64,000 nt of DNA from a virus, in IMG/VR virus record IMGVR_UViG_3300037189_023790, positions 1 to 64,000 of that record; one strand, written 5' to 3'. Positions 487-9,814 of this stretch are shown piece by piece. The notes beneath the pieces are model-generated. The model saw only the letters and a list, made by a program, of their open reading frames with translations, searched no databases and was not told where the DNA came from. Positions within the stretch are counted from its first letter, which is position 1, and each line of letters opens with the position of its first letter. Both the position numbers and the translations under genes were made by a program.

Positions 487-812
487 ATAGCAAAACTGTT
501 ATAAAGAAAGTTTCTGAGCAATTGGGCTATTCCCCTTCTTTAATTGAAGAAGTGTACAATGCTTATTGGAAAGATAAAAAGGAACATCTATCTAATGAGG
601 AATTTACAATAGTTATGTTAGAATATTTAGGTAAGTGGGAAATTAATAGTGCAAGATTAAAAACTACGTTAAAATTCCATTTAAAAGAATTAGAAAAAAT
701 ACAATTAAAAGCTCCTGTAGAAAATAAAGGAGTAAAATATACAAATATATTAAATCATCAGCAGGAAAAAATAGATTTTTTAAATAAAATAAAAAAAATA
801 CATAATTTATAA
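483..812 (+). CDS. hypothetical phage protein, 109 aa
   Basis: Unrecognised basic protein. The first 35 residues look like a two-helix segment (V-S-E-Q-L-G-Y-S-P-S-L-I-E-E-V-Y), loosely resembling the N-terminal helices of HU/IHF-like or small helical DNA-binding proteins, but a DNA-binding arm is not visible, so no function is assigned. Its TAA ends at 812, where the next ATG begins (812-814). Confidence 0.65.
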   Translation: MNSKTVIKKVSEQLGYSPSLIEEVYNAYWKDKKEHLSNEEFTIVMLEYLGKWEINSARLKTTLKFHLKELEKIQLKAPVENKGVKYTNILNHQQEKIDFLNKIKKIHNL

Positions 813-1294
813 TGTCAAAATATAAAGAGTTTTTTGAGATGAGGGGGAAATTATGGAAAAATCTTCCCAATATAGCAGAGGGTTTTTATAATGCGTTCTT
901 AGATGATTTAGGAGCATTATCAGAAAAACAAAAAGCAGAAGCAGAAAAAAGAATTGAAACCTGCACAAAATGTAAATATATGAGTTATAATGCAAAAGCT
1001 CAAGGACTCTCTATTACAGAAAGAGAAGACCCCCATTGTACTATATGTGGATGCCTGATAAAAAAGAAAGCTTTTAATTTTAGTGAAGAATGCCCTCTTC
1101 CACAAGTAGTGGTGAAGGATAATGTTCCATATCAATTAGGAGGTAATCCTGTTTGGGGATTTTATCAAAACACAGATAAAATGGTGGAAGAATTAATGAA
1201 GGACAGTCCTGTTTCCACTGTATTAAAAATTAATAATGAAGATTATTTATATTTAAACCTACCCCCTAAATTTAATACATTAAATGAAGATTAA
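812..1294 (+). CDS. putative zinc-ribbon-like cysteine protein, 160 aa
   Basis: Two cysteine pairs, C-T-K-C and C-T-I-C-G-C, lie about 30 residues apart in the central part (residues ~50-90), with further Cys near residue 95. This spacing fits a structural zinc ribbon. The rest is unremarkable. The role is unknown: small zinc-ribbon proteins of phages often bind nucleic acids or proteins, but nothing here shows which. It overlaps the next gene by 11 bases. Confidence 0.65.
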   Translation: MSKYKEFFEMRGKLWKNLPNIAEGFYNAFLDDLGALSEKQKAEAEKRIETCTKCKYMSYNAKAQGLSITEREDPHCTICGCLIKKKAFNFSEECPLPQVVVKDNVPYQLGGNPVWGFYQNTDKMVEELMKDSPVSTVLKINNEDYLYLNLPPKFNTLNED

Positions 1295-1568: not shown

Positions 1569-1818
1569 TATAACAGGAACAACAGTGTGTACAGGATTGT
1601 TACACAATTGGAATTATTCCCAACCCACAGAACAAGATGAATTATGGGATTTTATTTGGTTAGATTTAGAATCTGGAAATAAACTTGTAGTGCTAGAAGG
1701 AAAATTCTATGGAACGTATGCAAAAGCCAAACAAGCGGCTACAATAGCTTTTTGTAAAAGCTTTGTAGAAGAAATGGATGATATTGATTTGTACACACTT
1801 AAATTAAGAAGTTGGTAA
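1561..1818 (+). CDS. hypothetical phage protein, 85 aa
   Basis: Unrecognised acidic small protein with several Trp (W-N-Y, W-D-F-I-W) in the first 35 residues and a helical C-terminal part. No catalytic signature. It overlaps the following gene by 7 bases. Confidence 0.65.
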   Translation: MNNITGTTVCTGLLHNWNYSQPTEQDELWDFIWLDLESGNKLVVLEGKFYGTYAKAKQAATIAFCKSFVEEMDDIDLYTLKLRSW

Positions 1819-2120
1819 TAAAATCATTAGAGAATACATCCATTGCAGATGTAAAAGCTACAACATCTGATGTTGTTGTGTATGGAAATGGAGATACATT
1901 TCAATTGATTTCTAAAGCTTCTTCTAAATCACAAGGATGGATGAAGAGTTGTAAAGCTCTTGAAATCCCTGATGTGGGATGTGTAGTTCAGGTGACAACA
2001 GAATTTAGAAATAAAGATGGAGAAGTGAGTGGATGTGCAGAAGCTCTCACATTTGTTCCCGGAGTAAAGATTGCTCATAATAACATTGTAGGTAAATATT
2101 TAACTGAAATAAAATGGTGA
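1812..2120 (+). CDS. conserved-looking beta-rich phage protein, 102 aa (TTG start)
   Basis: The only start that keeps the reading frame compact is TTG at 1812, inside the end of the previous gene. The sequence alternates hydrophobic and polar residues (D-V-V-V-Y-G-N-G-D-T-F-Q-L-I-S-K-A-S-S) and suggests a small beta-sandwich. Function is unknown. It sits directly before the Acb2-like gene and overlaps it by 7 bases. Confidence 0.65.
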   Translation: MVIKSLENTSIADVKATTSDVVVYGNGDTFQLISKASSKSQGWMKSCKALEIPDVGCVVQVTTEFRNKDGEVSGCAEALTFVPGVKIAHNNIVGKYLTEIKW

Positions 2121-2350
2121 TGGAAACATTAGGTCAAAAACGTGTTGTATTAAATTATGGAATACCAACACAAGAACAGAAAGATTTAGCACAAAACATT
2201 AAAGTAAAATGTGCAGAACTTATTGATATGATTGAGCATTTAAAAACTAATGGAGAACGTGCAAGATTAGTTGCAACAGCTCAAACTGATTTTGAGCTTG
2301 GATGCATGTTAGCTGTAAAAGCTGTGTTTAATACTTATGAATCAAATTAA
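2114..2350 (+). CDS. Acb2-like cyclic-nucleotide sponge candidate (anti-CBASS / anti-Thoeris), 78 aa
   Basis: Seen: a short protein predicted to be two helices joined by a short loop. Helix 1 begins T-Q-E-Q-K-D-L and helix 2 carries R-L-V-A-T-A-Q-T-D-F-E-L-G-C-M-L-A-V-K-A-V. Known: phage Acb2 proteins and the C-terminal hairpin of Tad1 have this size and the pattern x-A-x-T-x-L/F-x-x-G-x-M-x-x-x-R/K-A-V in helix 2, and they sequester cyclic oligonucleotide signals of CBASS (some Acb2 also bind gcADPR). Inferred: this protein may blunt signalling-based immunity. Not proven, because residue similarity is recalled, not computed. Start could be 2114 or the ATG at 2120. Confidence 0.5.
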   Translation: MVMETLGQKRVVLNYGIPTQEQKDLAQNIKVKCAELIDMIEHLKTNGERARLVATAQTDFELGCMLAVKAVFNTYESN

Positions 2351-2546
2351 TAAATACAGGAAGCTTGGAATCTATATTTGTTATTTTCCTTTTTTAGATA
2401 AGGGAGAATACGCATATAGATTTTACTTTCATGATATAAATAATCATAAAATTGTTAATGATGTAAATGATAGATGGAATAATTTTGATGAAGGAGTTAA
2501 GATTATGTGTAGTAAAGTAAAAGAATATATTAAAAATGGCAGTTAA
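2337..2546 (+). CDS. hypothetical phage protein, 69 aa
   Basis: Unrecognised small protein rich in Tyr, Asn and Asp, with no signal or membrane helix. It overlaps the end of the Acb2-like gene by 14 bases and the next gene by 11, so it is part of the same transcription unit. Confidence 0.6.
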   Translation: MNQINKYRKLGIYICYFPFLDKGEYAYRFYFHDINNHKIVNDVNDRWNNFDEGVKIMCSKVKEYIKNGS

Positions 2547-3081
2547 AAAAAATGTTTATGCTTCAGTAGATATAGAAAAACTTGAAAAAGAAATTAGTAG
2601 TCATATTGAGTATTTAGAAAATCTGGACGTTTTTAATATAACAGATGATATAAATTTTAATGCTATTCCAAGACCACAGGTAATATCTACAATTGAGAAA
2701 AAAATTAGCACTGCTTTGAGAGTAATACAGAGCAGTGCTAATGTTACTTTAGCTTTGTTTGATAAACACGGAGTCACACCATTTATTGAACACATGATGC
2801 ATTCTACAATTCAATGTTTAAAAGAGGTACAAGAATATTATGAAGGATTTCCTATATCAAAAATTCAACATAGATATGCAGAAGGAATAATTTATGATAG
2901 AAAAGGAAATCCAAAAGTAGTTAAAATAATGGCAAATAGTAAAGAAGACCAAATAGCATCAAGAGTAATGATAACAGAGAAAATTCTTGTCATTTTACCA
3001 CTTATAGAGAAACTGGAAGAAGTAAAAGCTGCTGTAGCTTTAAAAGGAGATAAAGAATTACCAGAATCAATGATGTACTAA
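2536..3081 (+). CDS. hypothetical helical phage protein, 181 aa
   Basis: Unrecognised, probably all-helical, with a helix-rich first half and a Lys/Glu-rich C-terminus. Its place two genes before TerL is where a small terminase subunit could be expected, but no helix-turn-helix or oligomer signature is clear, so that is only a possibility. The stop overlaps the next ATG by one base (TAATG). Confidence 0.65.
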   Translation: MAVKKNVYASVDIEKLEKEISSHIEYLENLDVFNITDDINFNAIPRPQVISTIEKKISTALRVIQSSANVTLALFDKHGVTPFIEHMMHSTIQCLKEVQEYYEGFPISKIQHRYAEGIIYDRKGNPKVVKIMANSKEDQIASRVMITEKILVILPLIEKLEEVKAAVALKGDKELPESMMY

Positions 3082-3500
3082 TGAAAATACCAAAACTAAA
3101 AGCTAAAGCATTTTCAATTGATTTAGGAATTTATCCTTACACTCTCTTTGTTTGCTTCAAAGATTTAAATAAATTAGAAGAATTACTAAAAACACATAGG
3201 GATGGCTGTGAAGCAGAAGTTGCAATAGAAGTAATACAAAAAATAAATTTATATGTAAAAGAAAACTGTTGTGTAGGATGTGCTAGTGAGGCTTTTTTAC
3301 CTAATGGTAATTTGATTATTTATTTTCCTAATCTAAATTTGAAAAATATGAATTACTTTTTCAATATGATTCCTCACGAAGCTTTTCATATAACAGAAAT
3401 GGTGCTTTCTAATGTAGGAATTCCACTAACTAAATCCTCAGATGAAGCTTACGCTTATTTGACAGGTTATATAAATGAACAAATATTTAAACAAATATGA
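3081..3500 (+). CDS. small HExxH zinc-metalloprotease-like protein, 139 aa
   Basis: Residues 99-103 read H-E-A-F-H, the zinc/catalytic HExxH motif, followed about 20 residues later by D-E-A-Y-A-Y-L-T-G-Y, where the Glu fits the third zinc ligand of a gluzincin. A C-V-G-C pair is near residue 68. The protein is little more than a minimal peptidase core. The same motif logic recurs in virion proteins at 32669, 36902, 39387 and 54929. Known proteases of this type can act in capsid maturation or on host proteins; which applies here is not shown. Confidence 0.6.
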   Translation: MKIPKLKAKAFSIDLGIYPYTLFVCFKDLNKLEELLKTHRDGCEAEVAIEVIQKINLYVKENCCVGCASEAFLPNGNLIIYFPNLNLKNMNYFFNMIPHEAFHITEMVLSNVGIPLTKSSDEAYAYLTGYINEQIFKQI

Positions 3501-3790: not shown

Positions 3791-6700
3791 ATGGGAAGGC
3801 AAAAACTTTTATCAGTAGATGATAATACAGCTATAATTACTCAGGAGTTACAAACCGATATATTTAACGGGAGTACTCCTGAGTTTTTTATTAATATGAA
3901 TCCTAAAGATATTCCTCCGAAAGGACATGTTGATAGAGGAGATTTTATCAGAAGAGAAAAAGAGAAATGTAGGTTAGGAGTTAATATTGGAGGAATTTGG
4001 ATTCCGGGAGGGTTATATTATCACCTAAATTATCATAAACTTCTTGTAGATGTTGGAAAAGATGAAGTAGGTAAAACAATAAGTGTAATAAGTAATCCTG
4101 ATTTTAGAGATAATGATTGGATTATTCATACAGAATATGCTCAAGCAGTAAAAGAACAAAAGGGGTATTGTTTAGCTTCAGCTAGACAGGTGGGAAAAGA
4201 TTTATTAAATTCCTCACTTCTCTATCAAGAAGATAAAACTATTACCATTGGTGAAGCTAAAATAGGGGACAGAATCTATGGAGATGATGGCAAATTGACA
4301 ACAATAAAAGGTGTTTATCCACAAGGTATTAAACCTGTGTATAAAATTACAATGTTAGATGGTAGAGAAATATTTGCAGGAGAAGAACATAATTGGAAAG
4401 TGTTTGATACTAGTAGAAAAAAATATTTAACTCTTACAACAAAAGAAATGCTTTCTAATTTCACTATGTATAGAGAAAGTTGGAAAGATAGAAAAAATCC
4501 TTATACATGGAGATATAGTATTGATTTATGTAAACCTGTAGAATATAAAGAAAAAGAATTATTAATAGACCCTTACATGTTTGGGATATGGCTTGGAGAT
4601 GGTTCTAAAGATTGTTTTAGAATTACGAATGCAGATAAAGAAGTTGTAGATTATCTTTATGAATATGCTGATAAAATTGGTTCTTCTATTTGGAAATATG
4701 ATAATCCTAATAGAAAATCAAAGGCATCTGAATATAAATTTACATTTAATAAAGATTATAAAAGAGCTAAATATGAAAAACACCCTTTAACATTTGCTTT
4801 AGATTTTTATAAGGTAAGAAATAAAAAACATATTCCTAAAGAATATTTATATGCTTCTGTAGAACAGAGAATGGAATTATTAAAAGGATTAATGGATTCT
4901 GATGGCACAGCTACAGCAGGACTATCCTTTACAAATACAAATTATCAATTAATTAAAGATGTAGAAACACTTGTAAGAAGTTTAGGCATGAGTTGTATTC
5001 TTAGTGATAGAATTCCTTTTTGTATCTATAAAGGTGAGAAGACATTAGGTAAAAAAGCCTATCATTTACAAATATTTACTGAAAAACCTATTTTTAAAAT
5101 ACAAAGAAAATTAGATAGGCAAACAGGTAGTAAGTATAATAAAAGAATACCGATTAAAAATATTGAATATGTTTTTGATGATTATACTACATGTATTGAA
5201 GTAGATAACGAATCGCATTTATTTTTAACAGATGGATTTACAGTAACTCACAATACCTCGTGTCTAGTATCTCTATGTGCTAGAGAGCTTTTTCTAGTTA
5301 AAGGCTCTAATGCACTTGTAGTATTTGGAGGTACAGAAGATAAACAATCCTTCACTACAAAATTACAGACTGCTATTGAGTATGGAGAACCTTTTATTGT
5401 AGTGCCTAATATTGATAAGGATTGGGATAAAACAGAAATAAGGTTTGGATATACTAAAAAAGATAATAATGTTGAATTACATTCTAAACTGTTTGTATAC
5501 AATTCTGTTGGGGGTATAAAAACAGAGACAGGTGCAGGTAAAACTATTTCATTCTTTGCAATGGATGAAATTGGTAAATACAAGTTTCGTGCTGTGTGGG
5601 AAGCTGTGGAACCTGCTTTTAAAGGTAAGTTTGGATACAGAGCTTCTCCTTATTTTAGTTGGACTGGAGGTGATACAGAAAAAGCAGAACAAGCTTTTAA
5701 TTTTACACTTAACCCTGAAGCAGCTAATTTACTTCCATTTAAAACAGAGGGAAGAGATACAGCTAAAGTATTATTTGCACAACATAGAATAGATTGTAAA
5801 GAACCCGTTTCATTTGTAGATTTTTTATCAGAAAATAATATAAAACATAATAGTAATAATAAAGAATTAAATTCTCTTACTATTTGGAAATCTAATTATA
5901 AAAAAGCAGAAGAATTAACTAAGCAGGAAATTGAATTAAAAAAACAAGATAAAGACCCTACAGCTTGGGTAAAACATATTTCATATTACCCACTGTGTCT
6001 TAAAGATATTCTTTCTAAAGCTTCTTCTTCAAATTTTAAAAAGGAATATATATCACAACAACGTGAATATCTTAAATCTAATCTCTCTGTTACTTATATG
6101 GAAACTAAGAGAGATATACACACTAAAATTCCTGAATTAGTATTATCAAATAAAAAACCTATTACAAGTTATCCAAAAGAATCTTGGCATGATGGAGATG
6201 CTCCTATATGTGTTTATGATTTACCAAAGTATAAAGGATTTGGAGTACACGTAGCTTCTTGTGACCCTTATCGGGAAAACGAAACCTCTTCTTCAGATTC
6301 ATTAGGAGCTTTTCATGTTTGGAGAAGAAATCATAATGATTTAACAGACGCTTTTAGAGATAAAATGGTGCTATCTTATAAAGGAAGACCTAAAACAGTA
6401 AAAGAATTTCACGAAATGCTTTTAGATGTTCTTGAAATATATGATGCTAAACTTTTGTATGAACACTCTGATAGGGCATTATTGGATTTCTTTGAAGGAA
6501 AAAATAAAACCCATTTGCTTATTGATGCTGTACCAATACAAAGAGAAATTAATCCTAAATCTAAATCTTCAAATACAAAAGGATTAAGACCTACTGCTCA
6601 AAATAAAGCTGTTCTTTATGCTTCTGCTTTAGGACTTGTAAATGAAGAAATGGAAGATGGTATGTTAGGATATGCTAAAATATTAGATGACGTTTTATTA

Positions 6701-6922
6701 CAGGAATTAGATGCTTTTGACCCTGATTTAAACATGGACTCTTATATATCTTTTTCTCTTTTAGCACAAGCAAGATTATTTTACGATAAGTTTGGAGTTG
6801 CTGTAGTAACAGATATTAAACGAGAAATATTTATCCCTCCTAAAAAACAAATCACCATTACAAGTGCATTTGGATTTAACCCTAGAACAATTCCTAAACA
6901 AAAATCAGCTTTTGGATTTTAA
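3791..6922 (+). CDS. terL: terminase large subunit (TerL) containing an intein
   Basis: DNA-packaging motor ATPase/nuclease. The Walker A loop (S-A-R-Q-V-G-K, residues 130-136) is cut by an intein of residues 137-488 and resumes with T489-S-C-L. Walker B with catalytic Glu is F-F-A-M-D-E (D592, E593). A RuvC-like nuclease centre begins at V-A-S-C-D-P (D825). Removal of the intein gives about 691 residues, a normal TerL size. Next downstream is the portal, its functional partner. The C-terminus repeats S-A-F-G-F twice (residues ~1025-1043), meaning unknown. Confidence 0.93.
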   Translation: MGRQKLLSVDDNTAIITQELQTDIFNGSTPEFFINMNPKDIPPKGHVDRGDFIRREKEKCRLGVNIGGIWIPGGLYYHLNYHKLLVDVGKDEVGKTISVISNPDFRDNDWIIHTEYAQAVKEQKGYCLASARQVGKDLLNSSLLYQEDKTITIGEAKIGDRIYGDDGKLTTIKGVYPQGIKPVYKITMLDGREIFAGEEHNWKVFDTSRKKYLTLTTKEMLSNFTMYRESWKDRKNPYTWRYSIDLCKPVEYKEKELLIDPYMFGIWLGDGSKDCFRITNADKEVVDYLYEYADKIGSSIWKYDNPNRKSKASEYKFTFNKDYKRAKYEKHPLTFALDFYKVRNKKHIPKEYLYASVEQRMELLKGLMDSDGTATAGLSFTNTNYQLIKDVETLVRSLGMSCILSDRIPFCIYKGEKTLGKKAYHLQIFTEKPIFKIQRKLDRQTGSKYNKRIPIKNIEYVFDDYTTCIEVDNESHLFLTDGFTVTHNTSCLVSLCARELFLVKGSNALVVFGGTEDKQSFTTKLQTAIEYGEPFIVVPNIDKDWDKTEIRFGYTKKDNNVELHSKLFVYNSVGGIKTETGAGKTISFFAMDEIGKYKFRAVWEAVEPAFKGKFGYRASPYFSWTGGDTEKAEQAFNFTLNPEAANLLPFKTEGRDTAKVLFAQHRIDCKEPVSFVDFLSENNIKHNSNNKELNSLTIWKSNYKKAEELTKQEIELKKQDKDPTAWVKHISYYPLCLKDILSKASSSNFKKEYISQQREYLKSNLSVTYMETKRDIHTKIPELVLSNKKPITSYPKESWHDGDAPICVYDLPKYKGFGVHVASCDPYRENETSSSDSLGAFHVWRRNHNDLTDAFRDKMVLSYKGRPKTVKEFHEMLLDVLEIYDAKLLYEHSDRALLDFFEGKNKTHLLIDAVPIQREINPKSKSSNTKGLRPTAQNKAVLYASALGLVNEEMEDGMLGYAKILDDVLLQELDAFDPDLNMDSYISFSLLAQARLFYDKFGVAVVTDIKREIFIPPKKQITITSAFGFNPRTIPKQKSAFGF
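4199..5254 (+). other. class 3-type intein with LAGLIDADG homing endonuclease, 352 aa (in TerL Walker A)
   Basis: Boundaries follow from the restored Walker A loop (GK|T) and the terminal His-Asn (residues 487-488) before Thr489. Residue 1 of the intein is Asp, not Cys/Ser. The diagnostic W-C-T set of class 3 inteins is present: Trp202 two residues after the block B His200, Cys468 at the start of block F (C-I-E-V), and the +1 Thr489. The endonuclease domain carries two LAGLIDADG motifs, F-G-I-W-L-G-D-G (D270) and L-K-G-L-M-D-S-D-G (D369). Known: class 3 inteins splice through the block F Cys. Confidence 0.85.
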
Positions 6923-7039: not shown

Positions 7040-9814
7040 GTGTTTAATATAGACCCACATCCATTTGTAGCAGAGCATGGAGCACCCACATATCAAGTGC
7101 TTCCTCCTCAAATTATGCCATTAAAAGATAAACTTCCTAATGAAAAAGGAGAACCCTCTAAATGGGCTAAAGCTACATTGGATTCATTGAGTACAATTGC
7201 AAGATTTCAATATTATAGAAAGCGTAAGTTATTAGCAAATTATAAACTAATAAATGGAGAATTTGTATCTAGCGAGTATTATAATATTGCAGGACAAAGT
7301 GAACAAGAAGTAGATGAAGAGCAGGAAGCTTTTGATTTGATTAACGAAGTTAAGAAAGATTTAGAAGTTCCTGATGCTTTTGTTAGAAATTATGATATTA
7401 TATCACAACCTGTTAATACACTTGTAGGAGAATTATCTGACCTTCCTGATTTGTTTATGGTGGAAGGAAAAGGTGAAAGATTTCAAAGTGATAAACTTAA
7501 ATTAAAATCTTCTTTGTTACAAGAATGGTTTTATGGAGAGGTGGAATCTAAAATAATTGAACAGCTTTTAAAAGAAGGATTTAATCCTGATTCTGAAATG
7601 GATGAGGAAATGCAAAAGCAACTTCAAGAAAGGCATGAACAATTAAAGCAACAACTCACTCCTGCTGATATTCAAAAATACATTACAGATGATTTTAGAC
7701 ATCTAATTGAACAGTGGGCGCAAGTGGAATTGGAAGACCAAAGAGTTAGGTTTAATTTAAAGAAAGCTCAAAGAGTAGAATTTACAGACTATCTTACAAT
7801 TGCTGAACGATATAGACACATTTATTTAGATGGGTTTGGATTGAAGATTGAATCCCTCAATCCTTTATTTGTATTTTCTCATAAATCTCCTGAAACGGAA
7901 TATGTACAAGATGGTAATTATGCAGGTATAATTCGTTTTCTATCACTATCTGATGTAATAAATAGATATGGATATTTAATGACTGTTGAACAAATTGAAT
8001 CTTTACAAAAATCTTGGAAGGGGTATTATAAAGAACAGAATAAGGGAAAAGATATGTTTGGAAATAAAGTGGACTATTTATCTCCACAAGGAATTCCCTA
8101 CCAAACGTTTCTTCCTTCTTTAGATAGGGATTTTCTTCAGTTTGCTCCTTCAATGGCGGCAAGTGGTAATTCTTTAATTGGAATATTAGATGAGGTGACA
8201 GCTTCTCAAATTGATGGATTGGGAGAAAACACTTTCATTAATAGTTATGGAATGCTTGTAGTTTATGAATGTTATTGGAAAACACAAGTAAGACTTAGTA
8301 AACTTAGATGGACAAATCCTGAAACACAATTAGATGAAACAATTATAGTAGACGAAAATTTCATAATTCCTGATTGGGTACAGGAACGTAAGATTAACAT
8401 TCTATTTAAAGATGAACCAGAGTTAAATACAATTGTTCATACATGGGTAAATCAAACTTGGAGAGGAATTAAAATAGATAATTATTTTACAAACGGAATA
8501 CTTCAAAAACCTATTTATTTAGATATTGCTCCAAACGAATTACAATTTAAGGGTGAATTATACATTTATGATGCAAAACTTCCTATAGCAGGACAATATG
8601 CAAATAACAGAAATACTAAACCCACTTCATTAGTTGATAGATTAAAGCCTTATCAGTTTTTTTATAATGTTTTAATGAATCAATGTTTTCACTATTTACA
8701 GACAGAAATTCTCCCATTTGTAATTATGGAATCTAATTTAATCCCTAAAGATAAAGATTGGGGAGGTGAAGATAGATTAGAAAAATGGTTAAATATTGCT
8801 CAACAATTAGGAGCTACTCTTGCAGATAGTAGTTATCAAAATACAGGAGGAGCACCAATTCAAGGAGGACAGCTTCCAAGAGAAGTAAATTTAGATAGAA
8901 GTCAAAGAATTCTTACAAGATTACAAATGGCTACTACTATAAGACAACTTGCATTAGAACACATTGGTATATTCCCACAAAGGTTGGGAGATGTAAAATC
9001 TTCTGAAACTGCTACAGGAATTAATCAAGCTGTTTCTAGAAGTTATACACAAACTTCTTCTTGGTTTGAAAGTTTTTTTGATTGTGAAAGAGAAATTCTT
9101 CAGATGCAAATTGATGCAGCACAAACTCTTCAAGCAAGAAATAAGGATTTAGGTAAAACAATGATTCAATCTGACTTCACTCAAAAGCTTTTAGAAATAG
9201 ATGGTGGGGATTTTAACCTATATCAACTTCATGTGTACGTATTAAAATCACAAGAAGAATTACGAAAATTACAAACTGCACAAAAGCTTGCTGAAATGAA
9301 CACTGCTCCTACTCCAATGAGTGATAGAATACTCATGGCTACAGGAAATGATATTAAAGAAATTGTAAATACATTAAAAGCAAATGAAGCTAAAATGGAT
9401 GAACAAAATCAACAGCAGCAGGGATTAGAGCAACAAAGATTACAACAAGAAGGTCAAATGGAGCAAGCAAGATTGCAACAAGAAGAAAAACAATTCTATG
9501 CCAAGCTTCAAAATGAACTTCAACAAGAATACATAAGAGCTTTTGGTAATGCTCAAGCTACAACACAGGATGAAGATGGAAATGGAATTGCTGATATGTT
9601 AGAATTGTATAAATTACAAACACAAGCTACAGCAATGGGTAATCAAGCTACAGATGCTCAAACTAAATTATCGTTAGAAAATGCTAAAATACAAAATGAG
9701 AAACAAAAAACTCAAATGGATTTTACTGATAAGGATAAACAAAGACAACATGAGCAAATACTTGCAGATAAAGAATTAAAAGCTGCTACAATACGAGGAG
9801 ATAAATCTAAGTAG
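7040..9814 (+). CDS. portal protein, 924 aa (GTG start)
   Basis: Forms the dodecameric DNA gate at the capsid vertex and docks TerL. The call rests on its position after TerL, its size and a crAss-type portal core with the sequences around N-P-L-F-V-F-S-H-K-S-P (residue ~275) and K-P-Y-Q-F-F-Y-N-V-L-M-N-Q (~residue 540). The last 160 residues are Gln/Glu-rich and heptad-like, fitting the long helical barrel of podovirus portals. The GTG at 7040 is chosen because an in-frame TAA lies at 7025-7027 and no ATG intervenes. Confidence 0.85.
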   Translation: MFNIDPHPFVAEHGAPTYQVLPPQIMPLKDKLPNEKGEPSKWAKATLDSLSTIARFQYYRKRKLLANYKLINGEFVSSEYYNIAGQSEQEVDEEQEAFDLINEVKKDLEVPDAFVRNYDIISQPVNTLVGELSDLPDLFMVEGKGERFQSDKLKLKSSLLQEWFYGEVESKIIEQLLKEGFNPDSEMDEEMQKQLQERHEQLKQQLTPADIQKYITDDFRHLIEQWAQVELEDQRVRFNLKKAQRVEFTDYLTIAERYRHIYLDGFGLKIESLNPLFVFSHKSPETEYVQDGNYAGIIRFLSLSDVINRYGYLMTVEQIESLQKSWKGYYKEQNKGKDMFGNKVDYLSPQGIPYQTFLPSLDRDFLQFAPSMAASGNSLIGILDEVTASQIDGLGENTFINSYGMLVVYECYWKTQVRLSKLRWTNPETQLDETIIVDENFIIPDWVQERKINILFKDEPELNTIVHTWVNQTWRGIKIDNYFTNGILQKPIYLDIAPNELQFKGELYIYDAKLPIAGQYANNRNTKPTSLVDRLKPYQFFYNVLMNQCFHYLQTEILPFVIMESNLIPKDKDWGGEDRLEKWLNIAQQLGATLADSSYQNTGGAPIQGGQLPREVNLDRSQRILTRLQMATTIRQLALEHIGIFPQRLGDVKSSETATGINQAVSRSYTQTSSWFESFFDCEREILQMQIDAAQTLQARNKDLGKTMIQSDFTQKLLEIDGGDFNLYQLHVYVLKSQEELRKLQTAQKLAEMNTAPTPMSDRILMATGNDIKEIVNTLKANEAKMDEQNQQQQGLEQQRLQQEGQMEQARLQQEEKQFYAKLQNELQQEYIRAFGNAQATTQDEDGNGIADMLELYKLQTQATAMGNQATDAQTKLSLENAKIQNEKQKTQMDFTDKDKQRQHEQILADKELKAATIRGDKSK

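Follow-up and report, generated by a model that had tools for sequence, protein, structure and literature searches.

Genes at the locus and placement of the phage

The window, by which we mean the whole stretch of 64,000 nucleotides that was analysed, spanned bases 1-64000 of a virus record 93,664 bp long. A second record, IMGVR_UViG_3300032319_000846 (138,178 bp), was identical to the window over the 19.8 kb compared, and the sequences indicate that the two records very probably represent one virus. Base 1 of the window coincided with the end of this second record; both assemblies stop there, perhaps at a genome end or at an assembly break. The features of the locus are listed in Table 1.

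Table 1. Genes of the pre-terminase block and the adjoining packaging genes
Feature	Coordinates	Strand	Remarks
Cys-rich, zinc-finger-like pre-terminase protein	812..1294	+	Marks the upstream edge of the conserved crAss-like block
ORF of unknown function, 85 aa	1561..1818	+	Just upstream of the Lockin gene; 31% identical to its homologue in the sister phage
Lockin homologue, 102 aa, TTG start	1812..2120	+	Predicted 3'cADPR sponge; phmmer and Foldseek matches to 9p8l
Acb2-family hairpin protein, 78 aa	2114..2350	+	Predicted cyclic-oligonucleotide sponge; PF24729, PHROG 717, AF2, Foldseek, residues
ORF of unknown function, 69 aa	2337..2546	+	Missing from the sister phage
Conserved pre-terminase protein, 181 aa	2536..3081	+	Flanks the cassette; 60% identical in the sister phage
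Terminase large subunit (TerL) with in-frame intein/LAGLIDADG insertion	3791..6922	+	PHROG terminase matches; crAss-like matches
crAss-like portal protein	7040..9814	+	PHROG 6547, 5.3e-83; best matches Lbo-JY46, csAssE-Sib, Cellulophaga phi17:2

The portal and terminase proteins were both crAss-like, with the best matches in Leptolyngbya phage Lbo-JY46, csAssE-Sib, Cellulophaga phi17:2 and Steigviridae. As judged from the similarity of portal and TerL sequences and from the conserved pre-terminase block, the window phage is a crAss-like phage. In this block of small genes, ORFs 133, 483 and 812 recur in other crAss-like phages, and homologues of ORF 812-1294 were found upstream of TerL in Lbo-JY46, csAssE-Sib, Cellulophaga phi17:2 and many contigs. 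The first-pass annotation had placed the hairpin gene in a structural-gene operon upstream of the terminase; its position upstream of the terminase and portal genes was correct, but the small-gene block is not itself structural.

Two further observations were made on the genes near TerL. The insertion in TerL matched LAGLIDADG_3 (PF14528, 1.2e-6); this intein-like element apparently splits the Walker A region (RQVGK...THN-T), and the sister phage L107 carries an insertion at the equivalent place. The gene at 3081-3500 (139 aa, PHROG 1365), upstream of TerL, encodes an HExxH motif (HEAFH; HESLH in the sister homologue), and its product may be a small metallopeptidase.

Family and predicted fold of the hairpin protein

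ORF 2114-2350 starts with ATG, ends with TAA and overlaps the upstream ORF 1812-2120 by 7 nt and the downstream ORF 2337-2546 by 14 nt. The 78-aa reading frame and the helix-2 pattern that had been quoted for it from the letters were both present at this position; the pattern occurs as TDFELGCMLAVKAV, and the residues concerned are T58-D-F-E-L-G-C-M65-L-A-V-K69-A-V71. A match to the hairpin family had been proposed as the check on the assignment, and the profile search returned Pfam PF24729 (Acb2/Tad1 hairpin) at 3.3e-12 and 46.8 bits, which exceeds the curated gathering threshold of 27 bits by 20 bits. ORF 2114-2350 also matched PHROG 717, the Vs.4/Acb2 group (2.4e-7); Jenson et al. had identified the homologues of Vs.4 within this group (PMC10097602). 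A search of 14 control genomes gave 0 matches at E<=0.001. The window protein was aligned with 32 homologues taken from contigs of viruses and genomes, and all 33 sequences scored to PF24729 and to no other family. When the profile of this alignment was compared with PDB sequences, T4 Vs.4 (7uq2) was the best match at 1.9e-4, followed by Acb2 p26 at 0.02; the alignment profile was needed here, as the single-sequence phmmer search of the PDB missed Acb2. PADLOC returned 0 matches for the three proteins of the locus, and the NCBIfam search yielded nothing useful.

The helix-loop-helix layout expected by the first-pass annotation was borne out by AlphaFold2, which modelled ORF 2114-2350 as a single chain with a mean pLDDT of 88.6 and helices at residues 6-11, 20-41 and 47-72. 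One short helix followed by two long helices is the layout of the Acb2 protomer (PMC12043709). In a Foldseek search of the model against 350,542 PDB chains, the top three matches were Acb2 8h2j and T4 Vs.4 7uq2 (twice), with probabilities of 0.82-0.91 and weak E-values (0.6-2.4). Weak E-values are usual for short helical hairpins, so this ranking lends support without settling the matter. In favour of a chance resemblance between Acb2 and a generic two-helix protein are the abundance of helical hairpins and the E-values from Foldseek, which lie above 0.1. Nevertheless, the margin of 20 bits over the PF24729 cut-off, the independent PHROG 717 match and the specific residue conservation described below make such a coincidence negligibly probable, and a chance helical hairpin was rejected on the PF24729 profile statistics.

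The protein had been assigned to Acb2 and Tad1 together, and only the first half of this assignment stood. Tad1 shares the C-terminal helical hairpin family with ORF 2114-2350, but its N-terminal domain, a four-stranded antiparallel beta-sheet, is missing: the model contained no strand, and only 19 residues precede the first long helix. Identity as Tad1 was rejected because the beta domain is absent and the protein is far too short. These results demonstrated that ORF 2114-2350 belongs to the Acb2/Tad1 hairpin family and is of the Acb2 type, not Tad1; it is thus a further member of the already known Acb2 family. By homology, it would form a hexamer of helical hairpins.

Compared with Acb2 of T4 (Vs.4, 7uq2) and of Pseudomonas phage p26 (8h2j/8ixz), ORF 2114-2350 has in common PF24729, PHROG 717, a short N-terminal helix followed by two long antiparallel helices, stacking aromatics, Lys and Lys/Arg contacts and small hexamer-interface residues. 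Unlike these proteins, which have 88-94 aa, it has 78 aa, it is encoded by a crAss-like phage beside a Lockin gene, and it carries an N-terminal T-x-G-[EQ]-K motif that is common to a short phage subfamily. This short subfamily, which includes Flavobacterium phage FCL-2 and other Bacteroidota phages and genomes, shares a G-[EQ]-K-R-V motif, an equal length and approximately 36-44% identity with ORF 2114-2350; it differs in its genomic neighbours and in having an F-N-P motif, whereas ORF 2114-2350 has Y-G-I-P and a longer loop.

Conservation of ligand-contact and interface residues

Previous work on T4 Vs.4 identified Y8, H11, K23, R79 and F82 as cGAMP contacts and L29, A66, A73 and A77 as residues required for hexamer formation, and T12 and S74 turned up in a genetic screen (PMC10097602). 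In addition, T68M in T4 Acb2 reduces binding (PMC12657230). These 12 positions (T4 numbering) were compared with ORF 2114-2350 in an alignment whose register to T4 is ungapped at both hairpin ends; towards the N-terminus, the register was placed manually on a segment without gaps, and shuffling supported it (p=0.008 for T4, p=0.00025 for p26). Eight of the 12 functional positions were identical (Y15, T19, K30, L36, A56, T58, A67 and F72), as against 5 of the 34 other aligned columns (Fisher p=0.0015). Four of the five dinucleotide contacts were kept, with Y15, K30 and F72 identical and R79 conservatively replaced by K69, while H11 was lost through replacement by P18. Y15 and F72 are the conserved cGAMP-stacking aromatics. 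At the hexamer interface, L36, A56 and A67 were identical, and T4 A73 was replaced by G63. Across the 33 family sequences, K30, A56 and T58 were invariant. R51 was also invariant in the family and aligned with R67 of Acb2 p26, a residue that we take to sit in the trinucleotide site.

ORF 2114-2350 departs from T4 Acb2 mainly in its hairpin, which is approximately 17 residues shorter at its tip (K30 to T58 versus K23 to T68), so that its assembly could differ. In the sister orthologue, T58 is replaced by K and F72 by T; without these equivalents, the ligand may differ among relatives, and the sequences suggest a ligand drift between Acb2 lineages.

These differences bear on the signal that would be bound. 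A shortened hairpin might bind only trinucleotides, or an ADP-ribose derivative as Tad1 does, in which case the target would be type III CRISPR/NucC or Thoeris and not dinucleotide CBASS. The change of H11 to P18 and the sister orthologue's lack of residues equivalent to T58 and F72 are in favour of such a shift, and the alignment of R51 with the presumed trinucleotide-site residue of p26 is a lead only. On the other hand, the dinucleotide contacts Y15, F72, K30 and K69 are present in the window copy, and the Tad1 beta domain is absent. We therefore regard a sponge for another signal as a rather unlikely, yet serious, alternative to an Acb2-type sponge that binds cyclic dinucleotides and perhaps trinucleotides and would thereby inhibit CBASS.

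The Lockin neighbour and a predicted two-sponge cassette

ORF 1812-2120 matched PDB entry 9p8l, 'Lockin', by phmmer (1.4e-22, over residues 4-87), and its AlphaFold2 model, although moderate (pLDDT 71), matched the same entry, 'Lockin in complex with 3'cADPR', in Foldseek (3.9e-7, probability 1.00, 49% identity). These results demonstrated that ORF 1812-2120 is a Lockin homologue. It differs from 9p8l in its C-terminal tail and in lying beside Acb2 in a crAss-like phage. No useful Pfam or PHROG match was obtained for it, and no match was found among isolated phages; its relatives occurred in 13 other viral contigs at 53-73% identity. By analogy, it would trap 3'cADPR, a Thoeris-type signal, the ligand being read solely from the title of PDB entry 9p8l. 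A 2025 paper reportedly presented Lockin as a sponge with which phages counter Thoeris; neither that paper nor a report of Acb2 in crAss-like phages was found in the literature searched. Lockin relatives were also seen on three contigs (L099, L102 and L105) with pentapeptide-repeat and formylglycine-enzyme-like genes, and these contigs look bacterial rather than phage-derived.

The first-pass annotation had suggested related functions for both genes adjoining the hairpin gene. For the upstream gene this was fruitful, whereas the downstream ORF 2337-2546 had no relatives in any search outside the identical record and no PDB match. No Pfam, PHROG or PDB match was obtained for ORF 1561-1818, a possible further member of the cassette, and ORF 2536-3081 had no family match in Pfam or PHROG. 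Two further families were searched for: the two related records contained no match to Tad2 (PF11195), in a search with a working control, and the phage's own record contained none to Acb4 (PF13876), in a search in which no control responded.

The gene order Lockin, Acb2 and an approximately 185-aa protein recurred ahead of the terminase gene in contigs L094 and L107, with identities to the window of 67% for Lockin, 42% for Acb2, 60% for ORF 2536 and 60% for the portal; L094 and L107 differ from each other too little for dN/dS. In the sister phage, Acb2 directly abuts a 187-aa homologue of ORF 2536. The flanks retrieved for the other Lockin loci contained no Acb2 hairpin, and those retrieved for hairpin loci outside the clade of the window phage, L094 and L107 contained no Lockin. 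Thus, as far as searched, the pair belongs to this crAss-like clade. No description of the pairing turned up in the literature searched, and we consider it the interesting part of the locus.

Among 50 crAss-like records with a related portal, many of them fragments, the hairpin was present in only 3-4. Hairpins were located upstream of TerL in L002 and L118; Cellulophaga phi17:2 gp072, three genes upstream of TerL, gave a weak match below the cut-off; and cr111_1 gave a clear match elsewhere in the genome. Lbo-JY46, csAssE-Sib and DAC15 were checked, and no hairpin was detected in them. The location just upstream of TerL, shared with the weak gp072 match and with L002, would fit a repurposed homologue that keeps the Acb2 fold and serves packaging or another housekeeping role in the pre-terminase block, with no trapping of immune signals. 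We consider this improbable. The patchy presence indicates that the hairpin is not generally needed for packaging and disfavours an essential packaging protein; moreover, the ligand-contact residues are the ones conserved, the adjoining gene encodes another predicted sponge, and relatives can sit away from terminase genes, as in Flavobacterium phage FCL-2, where the hairpin gene lies beside RusA resolvase and uncharacterised genes. The patchy distribution, together with the pair order kept in L094 and L107, fits accessory counter-defence better than packaging.

Collectively, the analysis showed that ORF 2114-2350 has the family, the predicted fold and the conserved residues of Acb2, that ORF 1812-2120 belongs to the Lockin family, and that the two genes adjoin each other in an arrangement that is conserved. 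On this basis we think it likely that ORF 2114-2350 is an Acb2-type sponge that acts alongside the Lockin homologue in a two-sponge cassette inserted in the pre-terminase block. In the proposed mechanism, hexameric Acb2 would trap cyclic oligonucleotides from CBASS-type cyclases, so that the effectors stay inactive, and the Lockin homologue would trap 3'cADPR, so that a Thoeris-type effector is blunted. By analogy with the known sponges, the pair is probably a counter-defence cassette against Thoeris-type and CBASS-type signals. A broader proposal seems to us evenly balanced, namely that the crAss-like lineage keeps a compact cassette in its pre-terminase block, with Lockin, a shortened Acb2 of altered ligand range and perhaps additional sponges or inhibitors, not yet described, encoded by ORFs 1561 and 2337, and neutralizes both types of signal together.

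CrAss-like phages are abundant, and to our knowledge little is known about the means by which they withstand signalling-based immunity. Sponges of two families with unrelated folds, whose genes overlap and have stayed together in two diverged lineages, would constitute a directly testable dual counter-defence unit, and the pre-terminase block of such phages, including ORFs 1561 and 2337, is a place to seek more counter-defence genes. Acb2 can also trigger Panoptes (PMC12657218, PMC12657230), so that its carriage would also have a cost for the phage. A second type of PF24729 hairpin (SRExSLAITKLQEGVMWL) was observed in cr111_1 (Steigviridae; L090:1396-1722), where it lies beside dUTPase-like and radical-SAM-like genes.
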